Translations under genes and position numbers: made by a program
DNA from: Geobacter sp. FeAm09
GTDB lineage: Bacteria; Desulfobacterota; Desulfuromonadia; Geobacterales; Pseudopelobacteraceae
Assembly (NCBI RefSeq): GCF_008330225.1
Contig: NZ_CP042466.1
Coordinates: 620,001-684,000, forward strand
Length of the DNA stretch: 64,000 nucleotides
Direction of reading: 5' to 3'
Shown: one piece after another, positions 6,727 through 20,721 of the stretch
Layout of the letters: each line of letters starts with the position of its first letter
Numbering within the stretch: position 1 is the first letter of the stretch
The notes under the pieces: generated by a model
What the model was told of the DNA's origin: nothing
Databases searched by the model: none
Seen by the model: the letters and a program-made list of their open reading frames with translations, nothing else

Positions 6727-7407
6727 GTGAGTAACCTGCTTGAGGTGCGCGGCCTGTGCAAAACGTATGCTACCGGGCCGAACAGGGTCGAGGTGCTGAC
6801 CGGCATCGACCTCGAACTGGAGGCCGCAACCACCACCGCCCTGGTGGGGGCCTCGGGCGCCGGCAAGAGTACGCTGCTGCATCTGCTGGGGGCATTGGAC
6901 CGGCCGTCATCGGGCACCGTCAGCTTCCGCGGCGAGGACATCTTCCGGAAGAGCGATCGTGAACTGGCTTTTTTCCGCAACAAAAGCATCGGGTTCGTTT
7001 TCCAGTTTCACCACCTGCTCCCCGAGTTCACGGCCCTGGAGAACGTCATGATGCCGGCTCTGATCGCCCGCGTCGCCCGTGACAAGGCCCGGGCAGCGGC
7101 GGCGGAGCTGCTGGATGACGTGGGGCTCTCCCACCGCATGGGGCACCGTCCCGGCGAATTGTCCGGGGGGGAGCAGCAGCGGGTGGCCATTGCCCGTGCC
7201 CTGGCATTATCCCCGGAGTTGCTGCTGGCGGATGAACCGACCGGCAATCTGGATATGAAGACCAGCGAGGGGGTACATGCCCTGTTGGCCGAATTGCAGC
7301 AGAAAAAGGGGCTGACCCTGGTTGTCGTCACCCATAATGAACGTTTGGCCGCCGCCATGGGAAGAACCGTGCGGCTGGTTGACGGACGGCTTGAACAATT
7401 TACATGA
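6727..7407 (+). CDS. lolD: Lipoprotein-releasing ABC transporter ATP-binding protein LolD
   Basis: A 226-residue ABC ATPase that powers the LolC/E permease encoded just upstream. Walker A is GASGAGKS (residues 41-48), the Q-loop is [10 protein letters not shown], the signature [15 protein letters not shown], and Walker [13 protein letters not shown] with a later His switch (VVTHN). It starts with GTG, preceded by AAGAGG. Its stop overlaps the bamA start (ATGA at 7404-7407), indicating translational coupling of lipoprotein sorting with outer-membrane assembly. Confidence 0.95.
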
Positions 7408-9734
7408 GTCTCGGGGGAAGAGTGCCCATATTTCGTATGGCAGTGATGGTTGCATGCGCGTTTCAGTTCGCCGTTGCCGGTATGGCGTGGGCTGAAGGCG
7501 AAAAGATTTCAGAGGTACGGGTCAAGGGCAACCGGCGCATTGAATCGGCCGCCATCCTCAACGTCGTCTCAAGCAAGGCGGGCGACACCTTGTCCGGCGA
7601 CAAGACCGACGCCGACATCCGCGCCATTTACAAGCTGGGCCATTTTCAGGATATCCAGGCTGCCACGGAAGAGACCGACAAGGGCGTGGTCCTGGTCTAT
7701 ACGGTGCTGGAAAAACCGGTCGTCCGCGACATCAAGTTCGAGGGAAACAAGGAACTGGGCACCGACAAGCTCAAGGAAGCCCTGGAACTTCGGCAGAACG
7801 CCATATTCTCCGCCAAGGACCTTGCCAAGAGCGTTGCCAAGATGAAAAAACTCTACGGCGACGAAGGGTACTATCTGGCCGAAATCGAGCCGGCGATGGA
7901 AAAACGCACGCCCACGGACCTCGCAATTACCTTCAAGGTCACCGAAGGGAAGAAGATCCTCATCCGCGTCATCCGTTTCGACGGGAACAGGGCCTTCACC
8001 GACAGCCAGTTGCGCAAGGTCATGGAGACCAAGGAGAAGTGGTTTCTGTCGTGGCTGACCGGGGCCGGCACGTACAAGGAAGAGGTGCTGAAAAACGACG
8101 CCTTGCTGGTCGCCGACCATTACATGAATAACGGCTATATCAATGTCAAAGTGGGAGAGCCGGTCGTCAAGCTGACCGACGCCAAGGACGCCCTGGAGGT
8201 GTCCATCGGCATCACGGAAGGGCAGCAGTTCCGCATCGGTGAGCTCGATTTCAAGGGGGAACTGCTGGAGCCGGTGAGCGAGTTGCGCAGGAAGGTCAAG
8301 GTCGAGCCGGGGCAGGTCTTCAGCCGGAGCACCCTGCGCACCGATATCGCTACCCTGACCGATATCTATGCCGACAAGGGGTATGCCTTTGCCAACGTCA
8401 ATCCGCTGACAAAGGCCGACAGCGCAAAGCAGACCATTGACCTGACCTTTGATATGGAAAAAGGTGAACTGGTTTCCATCGAACGGATCAACATCGCCGG
8501 CAACCCCAAGACCCGCGACAAGGTGGTGCGCCGCGAACTGCGCATCACCGAGGGTGAACTCTACAGCGCCACCGGCATCAAGCGCAGCAAGCAGAATCTC
8601 ATGAACACGGGCTATTTTGAGGAAGCCAATATTGCGACGGCCAAGGGGAGCGCCGGCAACAAGCTCAACGTCAACGTGGACGTCAAGGAGAAGCCGACGG
8701 GATCGTTCAGCATCGGCGGCGGCTACAGCTCCCTGGACGGCATCATCGGCCAGGGCTCCGTCCAGCAGTCGAACTTCCTCGGCCTGGGGCTCAAGGCGAA
8801 CGTTTCCGGCTCCATCGGCGGGAAGTCCCAAACCTACTCCCTCGGCCTGACCGACCCCTACTTCCTGGACACCAAGTGGACCCTGGGCGCCGACGTCTAC
8901 CGGACGCAGCGCGACTACAACGACTACACCCGGCGCCTGACCGGCGGCGACATCAAGGGGGGGTACCCGATCAACGACTTTATCGGTACCTTCTTCATGT
9001 ACAAATACGAGATCAAGGATATCTACAATCCCCAGGATGCCTATTCGAGGCTCAATCATGACGACCCGGACAACTATCCGCTGGGGGTGACGACGACCAG
9101 TTCAGTCATGGCCAGCATCACCCACAACAATACCGACTACCGACTCGACCCCACCACCGGGTTCATCAATTCGGTGACGGCCGAATTTGCCGGCCTGGGG
9201 GGGAATAACAAGTTTGCCCGCTACACCCTGGAGAACACCTGGTTCCACCCGATCTACAAGAAGCTGATCTTCTCCACCAAACTGGCCCTGGGGTACGTCC
9301 AGGAGGTGGGTGGGACCCTGGTGCCGATCGATGAGAAGTTCTACCTGGGCGGCATCTCTTCGCTCCGCGGCTACAAGGCCCGCACGGTTTCCCCGGTAAA
9401 GCTTCTGGGAACCGCCGACCACGCGTCCCTTACCACGTCGGAGGAGAAGGTCTACCTGGGGGGCAACAAGGAATTTTACGGCAACGCGGAGTTCTCCTTC
9501 CCCCTCCTGTCCGATGTGGGGGTCAAGGGGGTCGTATTCTTCGATTACGGCAACGCCACCAGCGCCCCCTACAACAAGATGTTCGATTCGCTGCTGATGA
9601 GCTACGGCGGGGGGATCCGGTGGGCCTCGCCGCTTGGGCCGCTCCGCCTGGAGTATGGCATCCCCGTCAACCCGCGCGCCAACCTGGACAGCCCCAGCGG
9701 CAGGCTCGAGTTTTCGATCGGCAGCCTCTTTTAG
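7404..9734 (+). CDS. bamA: Outer membrane protein assembly factor BamA
   Basis: A 776-residue outer-membrane Omp85 protein that inserts beta-barrel proteins. A signal peptide is followed by [17 protein letters not shown], the start of the first of about five POTRA domains (roughly residues 30-440). The 16-strand barrel follows, with the Omp85 loop motif SLRGY (near residue 655). The protein ends in LEFSIGSLF, with the terminal Phe typical of outer-membrane barrels. The first ATG overlaps the lolD stop; a second in-frame ATG at 7437 gives a more typical signal peptide and is a plausible alternative start. The Skp chaperone and lipid A genes follow, the usual order in Gram-negative bacteria. 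Confidence 0.96.
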
Positions 9735-9767
9735 GCTGCATCATACAGAAAAAGGAGAACGTCAATC

Positions 9768-10286
9768 ATGAGAAGGTTTATACTGGCGGCAGTCATGGCT
9801 TTCGGTTTTGCAGCGGCATCGGCGTCTGCCGCCGATGTGAAGATCGGCTACGTCGATATGCAGCGGGCGCTCAACAACTCCGAGGCGGGTAAGGAGGCCA
9901 AGGAACAGTTGGCGGCACGCCTCAAGAAGTATCAGGACGAGATCAACGGCAAGCAGGAAGAGCTCAAGAAGCTGAAGGACGAGCTTGAGAAACAGGGCAT
10001 GCTCCTGTCCGAAACCGCCCGGGCCGCCAAGGAAAAGGACTACCAGCAGCGGTTGAAGGAGTTCCAGCGTTTCACCAAGGACGCCCAGGACGAGCTTCAG
10101 GGCAAGGATGAGGAGTTCACCCGCAAGATCCTCGAGGAGATGGAAAAGGTTATCAAGGAGTACGGCCGTACCAACGGCTATGCCTTTATCTTTGCCAAAA
10201 ACGACAGCATGATGCTGTATGTGGATGAAAAGTCCGATGTGACCGAAGAAGTGCTGAAACGCTTCAACGCCGCAAAAAAGAAATAG
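9768..10286 (+). CDS. skp: OmpH/Skp family periplasmic chaperone
   Basis: A 172-residue protein with a clear signal peptide (MRRFILAAVMAFGFAAASASA, cleaved before ADVKIGYVD). The mature part is a long charged coiled coil (about residues 40-120) followed by the DEKSDVTEEVLKRFN tail. This matches Skp, a trimeric chaperone that carries unfolded outer-membrane proteins to BamA. It starts 33 bases after bamA, with AAAAGGAG as ribosome site, and precedes lpxD. Confidence 0.92.
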   Translation: MRRFILAAVMAFGFAAASASAADVKIGYVDMQRALNNSEAGKEAKEQLAARLKKYQDEINGKQEELKKLKDELEKQGMLLSETARAAKEKDYQQRLKEFQRFTKDAQDELQGKDEEFTRKILEEMEKVIKEYGRTNGYAFIFAKNDSMMLYVDEKSDVTEEVLKRFNAAKKK

Positions 10287-10342
10287 CAGGCGCCGTATCG
10301 CTTGTGCGGCCTGAATTTTGACTATCGCTACGGGGCAGTGAC

Positions 10343-11380
10343 ATGCAACAAAGCAAAACATTGAAAGAGATAGCCGACTACCTGGGAGGCACGGTCAAGG
10401 GGGACGAAACGGTGCGCGTTGGCGGACTTGCCCCCCTGGAAACGGCCGGTCCCGACACCATCACGTTTCTGGCAAACCCCAAATACGCCGCCAAGGTGGC
10501 GGAGACCAGGGCCGGAGCGGTGCTGATGGTACCCGGGAGCGAGGCTTACGGCCGCAACGCGGTCGAGGTGGCCAATCCGTACCTGGGATTTGCCAAGCTT
10601 CTGACGCTCTTCTACACATCCCCCCATCCTACGCTGGGAATCCTGCCCGGGTCGAGCGTGGGTACCGGCGTGACCTTGGGGGAGGGGATCAGTATCTATC
10701 CCGGCGCCTGCATCGGGAACAACGTCACCGTCGGCGACCGGACCGTCATCCACAGCGGCGCTGTCATCTACGAGGGTGCCGTGATCGGCGCCGACTGCGT
10801 GGTGCATGCCAATGCGGTCATCCGCGAACGTTGCCGTCTCGGCAAGCGGGTGATCATCCAGCCCGGTGCGGTCATCGGGAGCGACGGCTTCGGGTATGCC
10901 CCGGACGGACGCGGTTATTACCGGATTCCTCAGATCGGCATCGTCGTGCTGGAGGACGATGTGGAGATCGGCGCCAATACGACCATCGACCGGGCGGCCC
11001 TGGAAGTTACCCTGATAAAGCAGGGCACCAAGCTCGACAACCTGGTGCAGGTCGCTCACAACTGCCAGATAGGGCGTGATTGCATGATCGTCTCCCAGGT
11101 GGGGATATCGGGCAGCACCAAGGTCGGCGACCACGTGACCCTGGCCGGCCAGGTCGGGGTTGCCGGCCATCTGACCATCGGCGACAACGTGATGGTGGGG
11201 GCCAAGTCGGGGATACCCAACTCCCTGGCCGCCAATGCCGGCTACAGCGGCTATCCGGCACAGCCCCACAAGGAGTGGCTCAAATCCATGGCGGTGGTCG
11301 CCAACCTGCCGACCCTGAAGAAAACGGTCGGCAGCCTGGAGAAGCGCATCGCCGAATTGGAAGAACAACTGAAAAAATAA
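10343..11380 (+). CDS. lpxD: UDP-3-O-(3-hydroxyacyl)glucosamine N-acyltransferase LpxD
   Basis: A 345-residue left-handed beta-helix acyltransferase that adds the second hydroxyacyl chain, to the 2-amino group, in lipid A synthesis. An N-terminal uridine-binding region (about 1-100, [20 protein letters not shown]) is followed by many hexapeptide repeats. The catalytic His is H239 in QVAHNCQIG, the same number as in E. coli LpxD. A C-terminal helix ([14 protein letters not shown]) follows. If the GnnA/GnnB pathway downstream operates, its substrate would be the 3-N-acylated sugar rather than the usual 3-O form. Confidence 0.95.
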
Positions 11381-11391
11381 CGGCTTGATTG

Positions 11392-11523
11392 GCCACGGAG
11401 CCACAGAGACACAGAGACACAGAGGAAAATCAGAGGCAGAGGAACAAGACGGTTTTATGTCCATCTGCTGTAACGTGAGCAGATTGTTTTTTGACGTTCT
11501 CAGTGCCTCTGTGGCTCCGTGGC
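11392..11523. repeat. Intergenic inverted-repeat element (CCACAGAG type), copy 1
   Basis: The gap between lpxD and fabZ is filled by an inverted repeat. The 25-nt arms 11392-11416 and 11499-11523 match at 23 of 25 positions. The left arm contains tandem CACAGAGA units. The 82-nt centre has no convincing ORF. A diverged second copy is at 61920-62056. It lies inside a co-transcribed lipid A operon, so the transcript would contain a long hairpin. Confidence 0.8.
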
Positions 11524-11568
11524 AGACTGTTTATTTGTGGCACCTATTTTATTTCAACGAGGTTTCCC

Positions 11569-12012
11569 ATGCTAATGGACGTCAATGAAATCATGAAGAT
11601 CCTTCCCCACCGCTACCCCTTCCTCATGGTCGATCGGATCGTTGAACTGGAGCACGGCAAGCGCTGCGTCGGAATCAAGAACGTTACCATCAACGAGCCC
11701 TTCTTCCAGGGGCACTTCCCCGGTCATCCGGTTATGCCCGGCGTGCTGATCGTCGAAGCCATGGCCCAGGTGGCCGGTATCATGGCCTATCTGGCGTCGG
11801 ACGATGAGACGAAGAAAAAGGTCAGCTACTTCATGTCCATCGACAGTGCGAAGTTCAGAAAACCGGTGTTCCCGGGCGACCAACTGCGCATCGAGATCGA
11901 AACGACCTTCAACCGCCGCGGTATCTGGGGGGTCGACGGCAAGGCCTTCGTGGGCGAAACCCTGGTCACCGAGGCCGCCCTCAAGGCGACCTTTGCCGAT
12001 AAAGCCGCATAA
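11569..12012 (+). CDS. fabZ: 3-hydroxyacyl-[acyl-carrier-protein] dehydratase FabZ
   Basis: A 147-residue hot-dog-fold dehydratase of fatty-acid synthesis. It consumes 3-hydroxyacyl-ACP, the same pool used by LpxA and LpxD. Conserved elements are [24 protein letters not shown] (catalytic His about residue 49) and VEAMAQ (Glu about 63). ATG 11569 has GAGG at 6 bases' spacing and is preferred over ATG 11575 and over starts inside the upstream inverted repeat. It sits between lpxD and lpxA, as in many Gram-negative bacteria. Confidence 0.95.
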
Positions 12013-12057: not shown

Positions 12058-12837
12058 ATGATACACCCAAGCGCAATAATCGAACCGAGCGCACAGCTAG
12101 CGTCTGATGTCGAGGTAGGCCCCTATGCGATTATCGGCAAGCAGGTCACCATCGGCAAGGGCACCAAGATCGGCGCCCATACCGTGATCGGCGACTGGAC
12201 GGAGATCGGCGAGAACAACCAGATCTTCCATCAGGCCTCGGTCGGTGCCCCCCCCCAGGACCTGAAATACCGGGGCGAAGAGACCTGGACCCGCATCGGC
12301 GACAACAACATGATCAGGGAGTTCGCCACAATCCACCGCGGCACGGTTTCCGGCCACGGCGAGACGGTGGTGGGCAACGGCAACCTCTTCATGGCCTACT
12401 CCCACGTGGCCCACGACTGCCGCATCGGCAACAACGTGGTCATGGCCAACGTGGCGACCCTGGCCGGGCATGTCACGGTGGAGGACCACGTCATCCTGGG
12501 CGGCCTGGTGGCGATACACCAATTCGTCACGGTCGGCGCCCACGTCATGATCGGCGGCGGCACCCTGATCGGCCTGGACATCCCGCCGTACATGATCGCC
12601 ACCTCGGGCAAGCGCGATGCCAAACTGCGGGGGCTGAACCTGATCGGCCTGAAGCGGCGCGGGTTCTCGGACGAGGCGATCGGCAACCTGAAAAAGGCCT
12701 ACAAGACCCTGTTCATGGCCGGCCTGAAGCTCCCCGACGCCATCAGCCGCATCAGGGCCGAGGTCCAGGAATGCCCTGAAGTGGACTACCTGCTGGCCTT
12801 CATTGAACGCTCCGAACGGGGGATCTGCCGCGGATGA
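12058..12837 (+). CDS. lpxA: Acyl-ACP:UDP-GlcNAc (or UDP-GlcNAc3N) acyltransferase LpxA
   Basis: A 259-residue trimeric left-handed beta-helix enzyme catalysing the first step of lipid A synthesis. Residues H116, H119 and H154 correspond to E. coli H122, catalytic H125 and H160 (segments SHVAHD and AIHQF). G167 (HVMIGGG) aligns with E. coli G173, the chain-length ruler position; Gly there is associated with long (about C14) hydroxyacyl donors. The C-terminal helical domain (NLIGLKRRGFS onward) is intact. It is followed with a 4-base overlap by the gnnA-like gene, so its natural acceptor may be UDP-GlcNAc3N (amide product) rather than UDP-GlcNAc. Confidence 0.95.
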   Translation: MIHPSAIIEPSAQLASDVEVGPYAIIGKQVTIGKGTKIGAHTVIGDWTEIGENNQIFHQASVGAPPQDLKYRGEETWTRIGDNNMIREFATIHRGTVSGHGETVVGNGNLFMAYSHVAHDCRIGNNVVMANVATLAGHVTVEDHVILGGLVAIHQFVTVGAHVMIGGGTLIGLDIPPYMIATSGKRDAKLRGLNLIGLKRRGFSDEAIGNLKKAYKTLFMAGLKLPDAISRIRAEVQECPEVDYLLAFIERSERGICRG

Positions 12838-13778
12838 GCGCCATGAGGACGGCCGTCATAGGCGTTGGCTACCTGGGTAACTTCCATGCCCAGAAGTACG
12901 CCGCCATCCCCGATGTGGAACTGGTCGGCGTGGTGGACAGCGATCCGAAACGGGCCGCCGAGATTGCCGCGGCGCTGGGAACGACCGCCTACAGCGATCA
13001 CCAAACCCTGATCGGCAAGGTGGATGCGGTCAGCGTGGTGGTCCCAACCCAGTATCACCACGCCGTTGCCCGGGATTTCCTGGCGGCCGGCGTTCATGTG
13101 CTGATCGAGAAGCCGATCACCGTCACCACGGCCGAGGCCGACGAACTGATCGCCCTTGCCGAAGCGCGTAAACTGGTCTTCCAGGTCGGCCATCTGGAGC
13201 GCTTCAACCCGGTTCTGGTGGCACTTGGGGACATACTCCACGAACCGCTCTTCATCGAATCGGTGCGCATCGCCCCTTTCAAGCCGCGCGGTACGGACGT
13301 GAATGTGGTCCTGGACCTGATGATCCACGACATCGACATCATCCAGCACATCGTCGGCTCCCCGGTGGAGCGCATCGACGCCATCGGCGCACCGGTCTTC
13401 ACCGGGGAGGAGGACATCGCCAACGCCCGCATCGTCTTTGAGAACGGCTGCGTTGCCAACGTTACCGCCAGCCGCATCAGCCTGAAGAGCGAACGCAAGA
13501 TGCGAATCTTCCAGCGCGACGCCTACATAACCCTGGACTTCCAGAACCGCAAGCTGCTGGTGGCTCAGAAGGGGAGTGGCGAGTTGTTTCCGGGGGTCCC
13601 CAACGTGAGGGTCGATGAGCGGGAACTGGGGCAGGCCGATGCGCTCAAAAACGAGATCGAATCTTTCCTTGAGGCCATCAGGGAGGGAAAACAGCCCCAG
13701 GTGAGCGGCCGGGAAGGGAAGATGGCGCTGGAGACAGCCCTCAAAATCAACGTAAGCCTGAAAAGGACACACCCATGA
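12834..13778 (+). CDS. gnnA: Gfo/Idh/MocA oxidoreductase, probable UDP-GlcNAc 3-dehydrogenase GnnA
   Basis: A 314-residue NAD(P)-dependent oxidoreductase. It has the N-terminal Rossmann motif VIGVGYLGNFHAQ, the EKPITVT motif of the Gfo/Idh/MocA family (about residue 88) and a C-terminal alpha/beta domain. In Acidithiobacillus ferrooxidans, gnnA and gnnB lie between lpxA and lpxB and convert UDP-GlcNAc to UDP-GlcNAc3N (established knowledge); the same order is seen here. GnnA oxidises the 3-hydroxyl to a ketone. It overlaps both neighbours by 4 bases. The alternative is a WbpB-type dehydrogenase for another amino sugar, but the location between lpxA and lpxB favours lipid A. Confidence 0.85.
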   Translation: MSAMRTAVIGVGYLGNFHAQKYAAIPDVELVGVVDSDPKRAAEIAAALGTTAYSDHQTLIGKVDAVSVVVPTQYHHAVARDFLAAGVHVLIEKPITVTTAEADELIALAEARKLVFQVGHLERFNPVLVALGDILHEPLFIESVRIAPFKPRGTDVNVVLDLMIHDIDIIQHIVGSPVERIDAIGAPVFTGEEDIANARIVFENGCVANVTASRISLKSERKMRIFQRDAYITLDFQNRKLLVAQKGSGELFPGVPNVRVDERELGQADALKNEIESFLEAIREGKQPQVSGREGKMALETALKINVSLKRTHP

Positions 13779-14869
13779 TACCGATGGTAGACTTGAAGAC
13801 CCAATACCACACCCTGAAAGCTGAAATAGACACGGCCGTTCTCGCCGCCCTGGAGAGCAGCCAGTTTATCCTGGGCCCCAACGTGACCGCCCTGGAGCAG
13901 GAGGCGGCCGCATACCTGGGCGCGCCCCACGCCGTCACCTGCGCATCGGGCACCGACGCCCTGCACCTGGCGATCCTGGCGGCCGGCATCGGCCCGGGGG
14001 ATGAGGTCATCACCTCGCCGTTCACCTTCATCGCCACGGCCGAGGCCATCTGCTACGCCGGGGCCACGCCGGTCTTCGCGGACATCGACCCCCAAACCTT
14101 CAACCTGGACCCGGTCATGGTCGAAAAGGCCATCACCCCCCGGACCAAAGCGATCATCCCGGTGCATCTCTTCGGCCAGCCGGCCGACATGGCCGCGTTC
14201 AGCGCCATCTGCGAGAAGCACAACCTGCTTCTCATCGAGGATTGCGCCCAGTCCTTCGGTGCCGCGATCGATGGCCGCATGACCGGCACCATAGGCATGC
14301 TGGGCTGCTTCAGCTTCTTCCCCAGCAAGAACCTGGGATGCTACGGCGACGGCGGCATGGTCACCTGCGCCACGGCCGAGTTGGCCGAGCAGGTCAAGGT
14401 GCTGCGCAACCACGGCAGCCGGGTACGGTATCACCACAGCATGATCGGTTTCAACAGCCGTCTCGACGACATCCAGGCCGCCATCCTGCGGGTGAAGCTC
14501 AAGCGGATCGACGAATTCAACGCCGGCCGCCGCCGTGTGGCGCAGCTCTACTCGTCCCTGCTGGCCGACGTGGCCACCGTTCCCCATGAGGATGGCAAGG
14601 GACGGCACGTTTACCACCAGTACACGATCCTGACCGACCGGCGCGATGCCGTCATGGCAAAACTCTCCGAACAGCAGATCGCCTCGGCCGTCTACTACCC
14701 CATCCCGCTCCACAAACAGGATGTCTTTGCCCAGGCCTGCGCCGGCGTGAGCCTGCCGGTGGCCGAAAAAGTGGCCGGCAGCTGCATGTCGCTCCCCGTC
14801 TACCCGGAAATGCCCGACGCGTCGGTGCGCCTGGTGGCGGAAACCGTCAAAGAGGTACTGGTTGGCTAA
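13775..14869 (+). CDS. gnnB: DegT/DnrJ/EryC1/StrS aminotransferase, probable 3-keto-sugar transaminase GnnB
   Basis: A 364-residue PLP-dependent sugar aminotransferase. Motifs are the cofactor-loop segment CASGTDALHLA, IEDCAQSFGA (Asp pairing with the PLP pyridine), and the Schiff-base lysine K185 in FFPSKNLGCYGDGG. It would transaminate the 3-keto product of GnnA to give UDP-GlcNAc3N. The start overlaps the gnnA stop and lpxB follows about 45 bases later, so the whole set looks like one operon. Other DegT enzymes (WbpE, WecE, ArnB) are similar; the function call rests on position. Confidence 0.85.
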   Translation: MIPMVDLKTQYHTLKAEIDTAVLAALESSQFILGPNVTALEQEAAAYLGAPHAVTCASGTDALHLAILAAGIGPGDEVITSPFTFIATAEAICYAGATPVFADIDPQTFNLDPVMVEKAITPRTKAIIPVHLFGQPADMAAFSAICEKHNLLLIEDCAQSFGAAIDGRMTGTIGMLGCFSFFPSKNLGCYGDGGMVTCATAELAEQVKVLRNHGSRVRYHHSMIGFNSRLDDIQAAILRVKLKRIDEFNAGRRRVAQLYSSLLADVATVPHEDGKGRHVYHQYTILTDRRDAVMAKLSEQQIASAVYYPIPLHKQDVFAQACAGVSLPVAEKVAGSCMSLPVYPEMPDASVRLVAETVKEVLVG

Positions 14870-14914
14870 ACTGTATCCCTGTGTTCCCCCTGGTGTTGAA
14901 GGGATGTGCGCGTG

Positions 14915-16078
14915 ATGCCCGACATTGTTCCATCGACGGCACAGCGGAATATCATGATCGTGGCGGGTGAGGCCTCCGGCGACATCTACGGCGCCGACCT
15001 GGTCCGCGCGGCGCTCAAACTCGACCCGACACTGCGTTTTTTCGGCATCGGCGGAGCGCGCATGCGCGAGGCCGGGGTGGAGACGCTGGTGGATTCGGCC
15101 GATATGGCCGTGGTGGGGCTGGTGGAGGTGCTCAAGCATTTCGATGTCATCTCGGGCGCCTTCCTCACGCTGAAAAAGCTCCTGTCTACCGACCGGCCCG
15201 ACCTGCTGATCCTGATCGATTATCCCGGTTTCAACCTGCGCCTGGCCAAGGCGGCCCGAAGGGCCGGCGTCAAGGTGCTCTACTACATCAGTCCGCAGAT
15301 CTGGGCCTGGCGCCAGGGACGGGTCAGGAAGATCGCACGGCTGGTGGATCACATGGCGGTGATCCTCCCCTTCGAGGCCCCCTTTTACGAGCGGGCCGGG
15401 GTGCCGGTCTCCTTCGTGGGGCATCCCATGATCGACCTGGTCACGGTCACCCGGGAGCGGGACGAGGCGGCCGCAAGCTTCGGACTCGATCCCGGGCGCA
15501 GGATTGTCGGGCTCTTCCCCGGCAGCCGCCGCAACGAGATCGAGCGGCTCCTGCCGGTGATCATCGAAGCCGCCACCCTGCTGAAGCGGCGCTTTCCCGA
15601 CATCCAGTTTGCGCTTCCCCTGGCGTCCACGCTGCGCGATGAGGATATCGTTCCGCATCTTGCGGCGGCCGGCCTTGAGGTCACCATCACCCGGGAACGG
15701 ATTCATGACCTGATCCGGGCCTGCGACGCCGTCGTTTCCGTTTCCGGCACCGTCACCCTGGAAATCGCCTTGGTGGGCACCCCCATGGTGATCATCTACA
15801 AGCTCTCGCCCCTCACCTACCAACTGGCAAAACACCTGGTGAAGGTGAACAACATCGGCCTCTGCAACATCGTCGCCGGAGAAACCGTGGTCCGGGAACT
15901 CATCCAGCATGAGGCCAATCCGGCCATGATCGCGGACGAGATCGGTTCGATCCTGACGGATGCCGGCTACGCCGGGGCGATACGGGGAAAACTGGCGGCC
16001 ATACGGGAGAGGTTGGGCGGTGGCGGCGCATCCGCCAATGTGGCGCGACTGATACTGGCAACAATGGAAGATCAATGA
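14915..16078 (+). CDS. lpxB: Lipid-A-disaccharide synthase LpxB
   Basis: A GT19 glycosyltransferase of about 387 residues that joins UDP-2,3-diacylglucosamine to lipid X to form the lipid A disaccharide. Conserved motifs are IMIVAGEASGDIYGADL, LLILIDYPGFNLRLAK, YYISPQIWAWRQGR and LFPGSRRNEIERL. Possible starts are GTG 14906, GTG 14912 and ATG 14915. ATG 14915 is preferred because GAAGGG at 14898-14903 is too close to the first GTG. Its stop overlaps msbA (ATGA at 16075). Confidence 0.95.
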   Translation: MPDIVPSTAQRNIMIVAGEASGDIYGADLVRAALKLDPTLRFFGIGGARMREAGVETLVDSADMAVVGLVEVLKHFDVISGAFLTLKKLLSTDRPDLLILIDYPGFNLRLAKAARRAGVKVLYYISPQIWAWRQGRVRKIARLVDHMAVILPFEAPFYERAGVPVSFVGHPMIDLVTVTRERDEAAASFGLDPGRRIVGLFPGSRRNEIERLLPVIIEAATLLKRRFPDIQFALPLASTLRDEDIVPHLAAAGLEVTITRERIHDLIRACDAVVSVSGTVTLEIALVGTPMVIIYKLSPLTYQLAKHLVKVNNIGLCNIVAGETVVRELIQHEANPAMIADEIGSILTDAGYAGAIRGKLAAIRERLGGGGASANVARLILATMEDQ

Positions 16079-17826
16079 AACCAACCCTGTTACGCACCCT
16101 CGGATTTTTCAAACCCTACTGGGGCCTGCTGCTCCTTTCCGCACTCTGCTCGGCGGTCGTGGGCGGCATGGACGGCGCTTTCGCCTATCTGGTGGAACCG
16201 GTCCTGAAGAAGATCTTTGCCGGCAAGGATACCGGCATCTTTCTGCTCGTGCCGATCGGGATCATCGCCCTGTTCCTGGTCCGGGGGGTTGCCCGCTTTA
16301 CCTACGATACGGCCATAAAGCTGGCCGGCCAGAAGGCGATCCAGGATATCCGCAATACCCTGTATGCCAGCACGATTCGCCAGGATATGGCCTTTTTCAA
16401 CCGCCAGGCCACCGGCGAGCTCATGTCGCGCATGACCAACGATATCTCCCAGATGCAGGAGGGGATCGGCCAGGTCGTGAGCGGGCTGTTCCGCGACCTG
16501 ATCTCCGCCGTGTCGCTTCTGGGGGTCATCTTTTATCGCAACTGGACACTGGCCATCATCTCCTTCGTGGTGATCCCGGCCACGGCCTATCCCGCCCAGT
16601 TGATCGGCAAGAAGATCAAGAATGCCTCCGGGCGCAGCCTCAACGTCATGGGGGGGCTGACCGCCACCCTTCAGGAAACCTTTTCCGGCGTCAAGGTCAT
16701 CAAGGCTTTTGGTCTGGAAAACCAGATTATCAGCCGTTTCCACGCGACCAACCTGGAGTTTTTCCATCAGATCCGCCGCTTCATCAAATACGAATCCCTG
16801 GCCATGCCGGTTTCCGAGGCCATCATCTCCTTTGGGGTGGCCGGCGTGATCTATTTCGGCGGCAGCCAGGTCATGTCCGGGCACATGACCGCCTCGGAAT
16901 TCTTCTCGTTCATCGCCGCCATGGTCATGGTCTTCAACCCGATCAAGAAGCTGCAAAGCTCCTACAACGTCGTCCAGCGCTCTGCCGGTGCGGCGGAGCG
17001 CGTCTTCAACCTCCTGGACGAACACCGGGCCATCGTCGATCGCCCCGGCGCGCTTGACCTCGGCCGTTCCGCCGGCCGAGTGGAGTTTCGCAACGTATCC
17101 TTCAGTTACGGCGGCGAACCGGTCCTTCAGGACATCTCCCTGGTCGCCGAAAGCAACCGGATGATCGCCCTGGTGGGGCCCTCGGGCGGCGGTAAATCGA
17201 CCCTGGCGGCCCTGCTCCCCCGCTTCTATGACGTAAGCGAAGGCGCCATCCTCATCGACGGCCGCGACATTCGCGACGTGACCGTTGCCTCGCTCGTCTC
17301 CCAGATCGCCCTGGTGGACCAGGAAACGACCCTGTTCAACGAAAGCATCGCCGACAATATCCGCTACGGGAAGCCGGGAGCTCCCCTGGAAGAGGTGATG
17401 GCGGCAGCCAAGGCCGCCTTTGCCCATGACTTCATCCTGGAATTGCCCGACGGGTACGATACCAGCATCGGCGACCGGGGACTGCGCCTGTCCGGCGGGC
17501 AACGCCAGCGCATCTGCATCGCGCGGGCGCTTCTCAAGAATGCGCCGATCCTGATACTGGACGAGGCCACCAGCGCCCTGGACACGGAGAGCGAGCAGAT
17601 GGTGCAAAAGGCCCTGGATAACCTGATGGTCAACCGCACCACCTTCGTCATTGCCCACCGGCTCTCCACCATACTGCACGCCGATACCATCATCGTCCTG
17701 GAAAAGGGGCGGATTGTGGAACGCGGCTCCCACGAAGACCTGCTGAAAAACAGTAGTCTCTACAGCCGGCTGCACGCCCTGCAATTCAGCGACCGCACCA
17801 CCGGCGACCCCAGCGCCGAGTCATGA
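16075..17826 (+). CDS. msbA: Lipid A export ABC transporter MsbA
   Basis: A 583-residue half-transporter that flips lipid A-core across the inner membrane using ATP. An N-terminal six-helix exporter domain (about 15-320) includes the coupling region FFNRQATGELMSRMTNDI. The ATPase domain has Walker A GPSGGGKS, signature LSGGQRQRICIARAL, Walker B ILILDEATSALD and the H-loop IAHRLST. Overlaps of 4 bases on both sides tie it to lpxB and the acyltransferase gene. Confidence 0.94.
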   Translation: MKPTLLRTLGFFKPYWGLLLLSALCSAVVGGMDGAFAYLVEPVLKKIFAGKDTGIFLLVPIGIIALFLVRGVARFTYDTAIKLAGQKAIQDIRNTLYASTIRQDMAFFNRQATGELMSRMTNDISQMQEGIGQVVSGLFRDLISAVSLLGVIFYRNWTLAIISFVVIPATAYPAQLIGKKIKNASGRSLNVMGGLTATLQETFSGVKVIKAFGLENQIISRFHATNLEFFHQIRRFIKYESLAMPVSEAIISFGVAGVIYFGGSQVMSGHMTASEFFSFIAAMVMVFNPIKKLQSSYNVVQRSAGAAERVFNLLDEHRAIVDRPGALDLGRSAGRVEFRNVSFSYGGEPVLQDISLVAESNRMIALVGPSGGGKSTLAALLPRFYDVSEGAILIDGRDIRDVTVASLVSQIALVDQETTLFNESIADNIRYGKPGAPLEEVMAAAKAAFAHDFILELPDGYDTSIGDRGLRLSGGQRQRICIARALLKNAPILILDEATSALDTESEQMVQKALDNLMVNRTTFVIAHRLSTILHADTIIVLEKGRIVERGSHEDLLKNSSLYSRLHALQFSDRTTGDPSAES

Positions 17827-18740
17827 AACGCATCCTCTGGCCCGCTCAGACGGCCCTGTTCTACCTGCTCACCCTGGTTGGGGCGGTCCTCCCCGCGGGC
17901 CTCGTCTTCCCCGCCGGAACGGTGGTCGGCGCCGTCATGGCCCGGCTGCTGCCCAAACGGCGGCGCATCGCCATCGACAATATCCGCCAGGCCCTCCCTT
18001 TCATGAAGCGGCATCCCGACTGGACCTGCCCCCTGGAAACCCCTGAAGAGATTGCCCGCGAACTATTCCGGCATCTGGGAATTTCCCTGCTTGAAACCTG
18101 CCGGCTGTACCACGGCAGGGGGGACGCCATCATCGGCGGCGTCGAGATCAGGGGGCGCGAACATTACGAGCGGGCCCGGGAGCGCCACAAGGGGATCATC
18201 TTCGTCACCGGCCATTGCGGCAACTGGGAATTGCTGGCTCTGGCGTTCTCCCGCACGTTCGGCACCTCCATGTCGGTCGTGGCGCGCCGCCAGAACAACC
18301 CCTCCCTCAATGCCATGGTGGAAACCATGCGGCTGCATTACAACAACAAGGTCATCTACAAAGATGGCGGCCTGCGGCAGATGCTCGGCGTGCTGAAAAA
18401 GGACGGGATCATCGGTATTCTGGGGGACCAGGCGGTTTTTCCCGAGGACGGGACACTGATCGATGTCCTCGGCAGGAAGGCCTGGGCCACCAAGGCCCAG
18501 GTCATCATCGGCCGGAAAACCGGGGCACCGCTGGTCCCGGCCTTCATCCATCGTGAAGGCGCAAAGAGCGTCATCACCTTCTATCCTGAATACGAGCTGG
18601 GCAGCGACACGTCGGACGAGGGTATCCGGCGCGATGTCCAGGCCTTGTCGCGCTATGTGGAGAACTTTGCCGTTGCGCATCCGGCTGACTGGTATTGGGT
18701 GCATCGCCGCTGGAAACGGGCCGGGGAACCGTCATGCTGA
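17823..18740 (+). CDS. Lipid A late acyltransferase (LpxL/HtrB family)
   Basis: A 305-residue membrane-anchored acyltransferase that adds a secondary acyl chain to Kdo-lipid A. An N-terminal hydrophobic segment (about 8-35) is followed by the HX4E active-site motif GHCGNWELLAL (about residue 131) and the LGDQAVFPEDG block typical of LpxL/LpxM. It is the only late acyltransferase in the window; LpxL and LpxM cannot be told apart by reading. It overlaps msbA by 4 bases and the PAP2 gene by 7. Confidence 0.9.
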   Translation: MKRILWPAQTALFYLLTLVGAVLPAGLVFPAGTVVGAVMARLLPKRRRIAIDNIRQALPFMKRHPDWTCPLETPEEIARELFRHLGISLLETCRLYHGRGDAIIGGVEIRGREHYERARERHKGIIFVTGHCGNWELLALAFSRTFGTSMSVVARRQNNPSLNAMVETMRLHYNNKVIYKDGGLRQMLGVLKKDGIIGILGDQAVFPEDGTLIDVLGRKAWATKAQVIIGRKTGAPLVPAFIHREGAKSVITFYPEYELGSDTSDEGIRRDVQALSRYVENFAVAHPADWYWVHRRWKRAGEPSC

Positions 18741-19420
18741 ACACCAAGCTTCTTGATTTCGGAGTACCGCTTGTGGTGCTGGTGGCGGCAACGGCCCTTA
18801 TTGCCGTCACCGGGGCCGACCTGAAGGCCGCGACGTTTTTTTACATCAACGGCGCCTGGCCCGTGGGGGATGCCCAACCGTGGCACTTCCTGTACCTCTA
18901 CGGCCATTATCCCGCCTATATCCTGGGAGGGGCCGCGTTGGCGCTGTACGTGGCAGGCTTTGCCAAGTCGCACTTGGCGACTTTCAGGAAGGGCGCGGCT
19001 TTCATGGTGATCCTGCTGCTGTTGGGCCCCGGCCTGCTGGTCAACGCTGCCTTCAAGGATTGCTGGGGCCGCCCCCGGCCGCGGGAGGTCGCCCAGTTCG
19101 GCGGGAAACGTGCCTTCCACTCCCCCTGGGAAAGAGGCATTCCGGGCAACGGCAAGTCGTTTCCCTCCGGACACGGCGCCTCGGCCTTTTACCTGGCCAT
19201 GCCGTATTTTGCCCTGCGCCGCCGCTCCCCGCGGATCGCACGGCGGATATTCGTCCTCGGCATGCTGTACGGCATCGTGATGGGAGTGGCCCGCGTCAGT
19301 CAGGGCGGGCATTTCGTCAGCGACATCCTGTGGGCCTGGGGGGTCGTCCACCTCACGGCCGTGGCGCTCTACTACCTGATGGGGCTTGACCGGGAGACCG
19401 CTCCCGCCGGCAGGGGGTGA
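18734..19420 (+). CDS. PAP2-family membrane phosphatase, possible lipid A phosphatase (LpxE/LpxF-like)
   Basis: A 228-residue membrane protein with about six hydrophobic segments and the full acid-phosphatase signature: KDCWGRPRP (KX6RP), PSGHGAS, and RVSQGGHFVSDI (the SRX5HX3D-like third motif). The family includes LpxE and LpxF, which remove the 1- or 4'-phosphate of lipid A at the periplasmic face, but also undecaprenyl-PP phosphatases. Its place between the late acyltransferase and waaA, with ATGCTGA overlap upstream and GTGA overlap downstream, favours a lipid A role. Which phosphate is removed is unknown. The start chosen is ATG 18734. Confidence 0.85.
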   Translation: MLNTKLLDFGVPLVVLVAATALIAVTGADLKAATFFYINGAWPVGDAQPWHFLYLYGHYPAYILGGAALALYVAGFAKSHLATFRKGAAFMVILLLLGPGLLVNAAFKDCWGRPRPREVAQFGGKRAFHSPWERGIPGNGKSFPSGHGASAFYLAMPYFALRRRSPRIARRIFVLGMLYGIVMGVARVSQGGHFVSDILWAWGVVHLTAVALYYLMGLDRETAPAGRG

Positions 19421-20721
19421 CCCCTTCCATGTTCTACGCGGTCTACAACATACTCTCCCTGGTGCTGCTCGTGCCGGTACTCGTCTACCACCTGTACCGC
19501 TCCGTCAGCCGCGGCCGGCCGCCGGCCCTGGGGGAACGTTTCGGGCGTATCCCCCGGACGTTGCCCGACATCATTGCCAACCGGCCGGTGATCTGGCTGC
19601 ACGCCGTGTCGGTGGGGGAAGCCGTTGCCGCCCGGCCGTTGCTCAAGGCCTTGCGCCAGCGCTACCCCGGCCACGCCATCGTGGTTTCCACCACCACCGA
19701 GACCGGCCGCGGGGTGGCCTCCGGCTTCCCCGAAAAGGACCTGTGCATCTACTTCCCGTTCGATTTCCTGCCCGCCGTGCGCCGCACCCTGGACGCCGTC
19801 AAGCCGAAGTTGGTCATCATCATGGAAACCGAGATCTGGCCCAATTTCAACCGGGAGGCCGCCCGCCGCGGCATCCCGGTGATCCTGGCCAACGGCCGCA
19901 TCTCGGATCGCTCCTACGGCCGCTATCTGAAATTCGCCTGGTTCTTCCGCCATGCCCTGGAGTTTTGTTCCCGCCTCTGCATGCAGACCGCCACGGACCG
20001 GGAGCGGGTCATCGCCATCGGAGCTCCGGCGGAGCGGACCCTGGTGCCGGGCAACCTCAAGTACGATATCCCCTGCCGCCAGGTATCCCCGGCAGAGCGG
20101 GCGGCCCTGCGGCAACGCTACGCCATCCCCGGGGGGATGACGGTCATCACGGCCGCCAGTACCCATCCCGGCGAGGAGGAACCGGTCTTGGCCGCCTACC
20201 GGGAGCTCCTGGCGTCGTCCCATGGCCCGCTCATGCTGGTTCTGGTGCCGCGTCATCCCGAACGGGCCGCTCAGGTCGCCGGACTGCTGGAAGAGGCGGG
20301 CCTGCCGTTTCTGCGGCGCACGGCCCTGGCGGGTGACGCCTCCCCGGCGTTTTCCGGCGGATCGGTGCTGCTGGTGGATACGGTGGGGGAGTTGATGGAC
20401 ATGTACGCCCTGTCCGACCTGGCCTTCGTGGGAGGCAGCCTGGTGCCGACCGGCGGCCATAACCTCCTGGAGCCTGCTTCCCTGGGCATACCGTTCATCT
20501 TCGGCCCCCACATGACCAATTTCCGGGAGATCGCGGCACTGGTCCTGAACTGCCGGGCCGGAGTCCGGATCAATGGCCCGGACGAGCTGGCACCGGCCTG
20601 CCGCAGCCTCCTCGACGCCGCCTCCCTGCGCCGGGAACTGGGCGCGAACGGGCTGGCCATGGTGCGGGAAAACGGCGGTGCCACCGAGCGGCACCTGGCG
20701 GTGATCGCCGCATACGTCTGA
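19417..20721 (+). CDS. waaA: 3-deoxy-D-manno-octulosonic acid (Kdo) transferase WaaA
   Basis: A 434-residue GT30 enzyme that adds Kdo from CMP-Kdo to lipid IVA. It has an N-terminal membrane anchor, then RFGRIPRTLPD, the catalytic-base region LHAVSVGEAVAARPL, TTTTETGRGVAS, METEIWPNF and GGHNLLEPASLGIP. The start is either GTG 19417 (overlapping the PAP2 stop) or ATG 19429, four codons later. The number of Kdo residues added cannot be read from sequence. It closes the lipid A operon; a short CCGCC/GGCGG hairpin follows. Confidence 0.94.
   Translation: MTPSMFYAVYNILSLVLLVPVLVYHLYRSVSRGRPPALGERFGRIPRTLPDIIANRPVIWLHAVSVGEAVAARPLLKALRQRYPGHAIVVSTTTETGRGVASGFPEKDLCIYFPFDFLPAVRRTLDAVKPKLVIIMETEIWPNFNREAARRGIPVILANGRISDRSYGRYLKFAWFFRHALEFCSRLCMQTATDRERVIAIGAPAERTLVPGNLKYDIPCRQVSPAERAALRQRYAIPGGMTVITAASTHPGEEEPVLAAYRELLASSHGPLMLVLVPRHPERAAQVAGLLEEAGLPFLRRTALAGDASPAFSGGSVLLVDTVGELMDMYALSDLAFVGGSLVPTGGHNLLEPASLGIPFIFGPHMTNFREIAALVLNCRAGVRINGPDELAPACRSLLDAASLRRELGANGLAMVRENGGATERHLAVIAAYV

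Follow-up and report, generated by a model that had tools for sequence, protein, structure and literature searches.

Is the chemistry of the lipid A backbone, usually regarded as constant within a lineage, inherited with the lineage or with a segment of the lpx operon? The question is raised by a stretch of 64,000 nucleotides of Geobacter sp. FeAm09 (contig NZ_CP042466.1, positions 620,001 to 684,000; hereafter the window), in which two genes, gnnA and gnnB (together gnnAB), lie between lpxA and lpxB. Their best reading is that they make UDP-GlcNAc3N, the 3-amino derivative of UDP-N-acetylglucosamine (UDP-GlcNAc), for lipid A, and we consider this very probable. The window looks in this respect like another example of the known GnnA/GnnB kind; the surprise is that a central part of this operon appears to exist among its relatives in two versions that can stand in for each other, of which the window carries one, a variability that is not visible from one sequence.

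Gene order and distribution of gnnAB

The genome holding the window is a single contig of 4,099,068 bases, and the operon runs on the forward strand in the order bamA, ompH, lpxD, fabZ, lpxA, gnnA, gnnB, lpxB, msbA, lpxL, a PAP2 phosphatase gene and waaA. The segment of interest comprises lpxA for the first acyltransferase (12058-12837; TIGR01852 over cut-off), gnnA for a predicted UDP-GlcNAc 3-dehydrogenase of the Gfo/Idh/MocA family (12834-13778; PF01408 over cut-off), gnnB for a predicted C3 aminotransferase of the DegT family (13775-14869; PF01041, 432 bits), lpxB for the lipid A disaccharide synthase (14906-16078; TIGR00215 over cut-off) and msbA for the lipid A flippase (16075-17826). 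LpxD, FabZ, LpxA, LpxB and LpxL around gnnAB were identified by Pfam and NCBIfam models, and the labels bamA, ompH, msbA and waaA were read from translations. The preliminary description of this DNA had placed an oxidoreductase and an aminotransferase gene of these two families between lpxA and lpxB, joined by 4-base overlaps. The coordinates bear out the placement, and ATGA overlaps are present between lpxA and gnnA (12834-12837) and between gnnA and gnnB (13775-13778); gnnB and lpxB do not overlap and are separated by 36 bases.

Presence of gnnA was called at E<=1e-60 and that of a GnnB orthologue at E<=1e-115, other GnnB matches stopping near 1e-106. All six genomes of the window's genus have gnnA, and the window and the five further loci read of this genus share the same gene order. 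Within family f1, gnnA was found in 56/76 genomes (36/53 good genomes) and LpxA in 73/76 (53/53), and across the class a GnnB orthologue occurs in 103/226 genomes and 43 of the 75 genera. Judged by the genus, the gene order and these class-wide counts, the association of gnnAB with the lpx genes is beyond chance and the arrangement noted in the preliminary description is real. The 17 good genomes of the family without gnnA belong to genera g6 (14) and g7 (3), both of which also hold carriers. In all 17, lpxB comes immediately after lpxA, and neither gnnA (at 1e-60) nor GnnB (at 1e-115) was found anywhere in the genome.

We read 74 stretches of the family, of which one (L105) proved to be a paralogue and was dropped, and 60 stretches of the class outside the family; together with the window these make up 134 lpx loci, of which 88 contain gnnA and 46 lack it. 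Two loci in which a contig end cuts gnnA (L084, L154) were relabelled as carriers, and loci with gnnA only were counted as carriers in the flank tree, the state-change count, the identity comparison in g6 and the clade tests. Two loci from one bin with 9% contamination (L057, L052) were kept in the flank tree, the state-change count, the identity comparison and the clade test on all f1 loci; both were left out of the stricter clade test, and L057 of the nearest-neighbour count and of the pair count for a second LpxA.

Probable exchange of the segment within the family

On the tree of the upstream flank (ompH+lpxD+fabZ, 9768-12012 in the window), built for 131 of the 134 loci of the class, three having too little flank, the gnn state changes 18 times, and 10 of these changes are forced by well-supported branches. 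Counted gene by gene in family f1 (74 loci, 18 without gnnA; each gene covered by 40 to 74 of them), the minimum number of gnn state changes is 10 for ompH, 9 for lpxD and 9 for fabZ upstream, 9 for lpxL, 6 for the PAP2 gene and 8 for waaA in the downstream flank (17823-20721), and 2 for lpxA, 1 for lpxB and 2 for msbA in the segment between. A single clade of the gnn-less loci of f1 is rejected by both flanks, ompH+lpxD+fabZ with p 5e-44 and lpxL+waaA with p 8e-44; LpxB yields this clade with a support of 99.5, and it is not rejected by LpxA (p 0.32) or by MsbA (p 0.39). A stricter test, restricted to good genomes (53 loci) and run under a mixture model, gave rejection by the upstream (p 8e-7) and downstream (p 1e-7) flanks, no rejection by LpxA (p 0.22), and one clade from LpxB (99) and from MsbA (100).

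Furthermore, we compared the mean protein identities in genus g6 (38 loci, 23 with gnnA) within carriers, within others and across the two types. These are, in this order, 80, 80 and 79% for lpxD and 87, 88 and 87% for fabZ upstream, and 71, 67 and 67% for lpxL and 68, 67 and 65% for waaA downstream. For the genes between, the values are 83, 80 and 77% (lpxA), 78, 75 and 66% (lpxB) and 78, 75 and 59% (msbA), so that identity drops across types for these three genes only, and most for msbA. Many g6 carriers have no msbA at this place. In the sister pair L064/L073 the DNA alignment runs unbroken from ompH up to roughly base 470 of lpxA; beyond this point only two short stretches align before roughly base 100 of lpxL. 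Because the unbroken part continues that far into lpxA, one border may in this pair fall inside that gene. In the LpxB tree the gnn-less clade of f1 is placed among f1 carriers (the deep forks are not starred), which would fit a scenario, provisional in its root and direction, in which gnnAB were lost once and the shorter block then spread.

The segment lpxA-gnnA-gnnB-lpxB-msbA looks like a cassette that is exchanged within the family for a gnn-less lpxA-lpxB-msbA, msbA taking part where it is present; the exchange would probably proceed by homologous recombination in or near the flanks, which lie outside the exchanged block. We lean, by a small preference, towards regarding the lipid A linkage as an exchangeable allelic trait: amide and ester versions of the segment would have been swapped repeatedly between species via the flanks, LpxA, LpxB and MsbA each being fitted to one lipid form and LpxD and the later enzymes serving both, and outside f1 a second LpxA could enable a single cell to produce the two forms.

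Predicted function of GnnA and GnnB

In the proposed pathway GnnA would oxidise C3 of UDP-GlcNAc using NAD+, and GnnB would transaminate the 3-ketone to UDP-GlcNAc3N. The LpxA encoded next to them, predicted to acylate this sugar nucleotide, would then add the first 3-hydroxyacyl chain to the new amino group, giving an amide-linked chain, and lipid A would be completed by LpxC, LpxD, LpxB, MsbA and the remaining enzymes. The gnn-less block would yield ordinary ester-linked 3-position chains. Both reactions, the preference of LpxA and the product are predictions from the genes. The gene order, the family resemblance and the co-inheritance of gnnAB with lpxA, lpxB and msbA are seen directly, and this co-inheritance, which does not extend to LpxD, FabZ, LpxL and WaaA, is the best argument that gnnAB serve lipid A. 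Because all of these genes come and go together and the flanks do not, gnnAB would act in lipid A steps common to LpxA, LpxB and MsbA; the cassette-like behaviour of the whole segment therefore ties gnnAB to lipid A.

Among solved structures GnnA has one outstanding homologue, 7bvj (260.7 bits; the next solved chain has 76 bits), with 45% identity across 307 residues. We presume 7bvj/7bvk to be the GnnA of Acidithiobacillus ferrooxidans; the literature search brought up no paper with this entry. The best NCBIfam model of GnnA, NF040723 (UDP-GlcNAc 3-dehydrogenase), matches over its full length with 230.9 bits, below the cut-off of 450. Residues E92-K93-P94 and D161/H165 are invariant across 28 homologues, and GnnA is the only PF01408 match in the window genome. 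The DegT protein, judged by its relatives, is a C3-type sugar aminotransferase, and its K185 is invariant across 11 homologues. The likeness to 7bvj, the lone Gfo/Idh/MocA match and the co-inheritance with LpxA, LpxB and MsbA support the pathway assignment of the preliminary description well.

We also looked for specificity markers in LpxA and LpxB, and the candidates were rejected. LpxA position 100, together with positions 64 and 65 before the QD motif, separates the two types in family f1 and not elsewhere. LpxB position 70 is V in 66/73 full gnnAB loci vs 6/50 others, but this amounts to three independent pairs only and is not significant; for the LpxB positions fixed in f1 (131, 136 and 137 among them) the pattern is not repeated alike elsewhere. 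In alignment with E. coli LpxA, Gly173 of that protein aligns to Gly167 of the window LpxA, presumably the hydrocarbon ruler position, which by analogy suggests a chain length near C14.

Alternative explanations and contrary observations

The conflict between trees could also have arisen with no exchange, if both block types once coexisted, one or the other being lost later, or if LpxA, LpxB and MsbA converged under selection after independent losses of gnnAB. We consider this unlikely. One bin (G052, with the contamination mentioned above) does hold both types, as L052 and L057, but none of the other genomes among the 76 of the family does, the other double (G001) being a 43% paralogue. LpxA differs most at residues 38-74 and 149-185, as selection would also produce; the cross-type identity of LpxB, on the other hand, is reduced over the entire protein and most strongly from residue 97 onwards, and the largest drop is that of MsbA. 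Several observations weigh against an exchanged, lipid A-dedicated cassette, and one of them also favours the absence of exchange: the nearest neighbour in the upstream flank is of the other type in only 2/17 gnn-less and 10/55 carrier loci, a modest signal (for LpxA 1/17 and 0/56, for LpxB 1/17 and 0/49). The sister families f2-f4 (40 loci) show a weak sign of exchange, and a single clade of the full carriers is rejected there by MsbA (p 5e-5); the upstream genes need 3 changes and reject this clade at p 0.025, LpxB gives it (85) and LpxA does not reject it (p 0.23). In seven loci gnnA is present but a GnnB orthologue is missing. Moreover, in a per-column comparison over three groups of families no LpxA residue tracks gnnAB across lineages, and because of this the case for acceptance of the amino substrate by LpxA comes entirely from the genetics. 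The remaining contrary points concern PagL, a family of 3-O-deacylases. The window genome encodes a PagL-like outer membrane protein with the motif HHISN (L281, G000:C1:2068900-2070500; E 2e-21), which would be surprising for a lipid A free of 3-O-linked chains, and a second, weak PagL-like match (E 6e-4). In family f1, PagL is equally common in gnnA carriers (39/56) and in the others (10/17), three gnn-less genomes with no lpxA seen (G041, G048, G049) being left out and three weak or broken matches (G088, G075, G076) not being placed among the strong ones. With no anti-correlation (Fisher p 0.56), PagL was rejected as an indicator that amide lipid A is absent.

Because a 3-O-deacylating PagL would have no substrate in an all-amide lipid A, the lipid may be mixed or PagL may have another role. 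The earlier claim of four amide-linked chains is not supported as it was put, the PagL-like protein arguing for some ester-linked chains or such another role, and we are less sure that every primary chain is amide-linked than we are of the pathway assignment. A mixed lipid A, with ester- and amide-linked 3-position chains as in Campylobacter jejuni, would form if the cell keeps both UDP-GlcNAc and UDP-GlcNAc3N and LpxA takes both, with PagL acting on the ester forms. We hold this as a tentative possibility: besides the HHISN protein, HxSN motifs occur in three other carriers read (G016, G078, G001) and LpxA is without a fixed signature, but the window genome has one LpxA at E<=1e-40 and one GnnA, and the role of its PagL-like protein is putative. 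It is highly improbable, by contrast, that a surface polysaccharide is the destination of UDP-GlcNAc3N, as with WbpB/WbpE or WlbA, and that the genes for this sugar nucleotide stand in the lpx operon by accident. Only GnnB points in this direction, WbpE being among its best solved relatives (345 bits), and relatives of GnnB alone cannot separate lipid A use from O-antigen use. GnnA is far nearer to 7bvj than to other solved chains, with no WbpB or WlbA by name among the best 60 of its 94 solved-structure matches. In addition, gnnAB are inherited with LpxA, LpxB and MsbA, and in the window annotation no surface polysaccharide or O-antigen genes lie between or beside gnnAB, the neighbours being lipid A and outer membrane genes.

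Related loci and neighbouring genes

Outside f1, a second LpxA (E<=1e-40) was found in 35/57 genomes with a GnnB orthologue vs 1/105 without; on the flank tree this corresponds to 4 to 0 independent pairs (p 0.125). With strong counts and few independent pairs, the second LpxA is a lead as a partner of gnnAB. The second copies that were read (L302-L311, in G125, G188, G176, G090, G202, G173, G226, G236, G165 and G029) lie away from the lpx operon. A duplication of lpxA in Geobacter sulfurreducens is mentioned in one article (PMC3087551).

The loci with gnnA between lpxA and lpxB and without gnnB belong to family f4 (L136, L140, L143, L145) and genus g2 (L089, L098, L102). The g2 genomes G082, G084 and G085 stood outside the 226-genome GnnB survey and were covered by a separate gnnB search of all seven genomes, in which the best matches elsewhere had 46-49% identity in six and none reached 1e-40 in G084, a bin of 1.5 Mb with 53% completeness; the g2 bins are incomplete. 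The four f4 genomes have no GnnB at 1e-115. Among 80 named loci (L166-L245), 19 (e.g. L185 of Desulfacinum infernum, L200, L209 and L216) carry a GnnA homologue between lpxA and lpxB but lack a gnnB match there, and most of these have 0.8-1 kb of other sequence between lpxA and gnnA, which we presume to be lpxI. Another of the named loci, L173 of Geobacter argillaceus, is free of gnnAB. Locus L155 (G193) has lpxA with neither gnnA nor a detected lpxB beside it and was labelled gnn-less at its lpx locus; a GnnB orthologue (63%) lies on another contig of this genome. The dropped L105 (G001) contains, at about 7275-10630, a further lpxA and lpxB, with 43% and 29% identity to those of the window. 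Next to them are genes for an LpxL-like protein and for glycosyltransferases, assigned by eye, and the whole may represent a second pathway of the lipid A type.

In the window, the PAP2 phosphatase gene between lpxL and waaA (18731-19420) has lipid A phosphatases as its best NCBIfam models (LpxF with 86.9 bits, cut-off 400), and for this reason a lipid A phosphate may be removed by its putative product.

Significance and comparison with known systems

In the open literature, most subscription journals being outside the search, we found neither a lipid A structure from this lineage nor an account of such a block being exchanged. Close relatives whose gnnAB, lpxA, lpxB and msbA differ while the adjacent genes hardly do offer a natural experiment on the role of amide-linked chains in the outer membrane. 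Metal-respiring bacteria, in which electron conduits traverse that membrane, belong to this group. Our reading predicts that LpxA, LpxB and MsbA distinguish the two lipid A forms and that LpxD and LpxL do not.

The closest known system is that of A. ferrooxidans, whose gnnA/gnnB were reportedly described by Sweet, Ribeiro and Raetz in 2004. There, too, the two genes lie between lpxA and lpxB, and the window GnnA belongs to the same fold family, with the 45% identity to 7bvj, presumably that enzyme. The system described here differs in being known from genes alone and in that its presence varies between sister species, with lpxA, lpxB and msbA varying along. WbpB/WbpE and WlbA/WlbB, which belong to O-antigen sugar pathways and act on the uronic acid form UDP-GlcNAcA, share the same C3 oxidation and transamination, and GnnB has WbpE among its closest solved relatives, whereas the window GnnA is nearest to 7bvj and its locus is that of lipid A. 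The archaeal UDP-GlcNAc 3-dehydrogenase model NF040723 is matched by GnnA better than any other NCBIfam model and over the full length, but with a score well under its cut-off, and the window protein is bacterial and encoded in an lpx operon. Finally, an article on Phyllobacterium and Mesorhizobium (PMC5644692) reports gnnA/gnnB, with the same two steps predicted, and a lipid A shown to contain the 3-amino sugar GlcN3N with amide-linked 3-hydroxy acids; gnnA and gnnB lie there apart from the lpxD-lpxA-lpxB cluster, whereas here they lie inside it.

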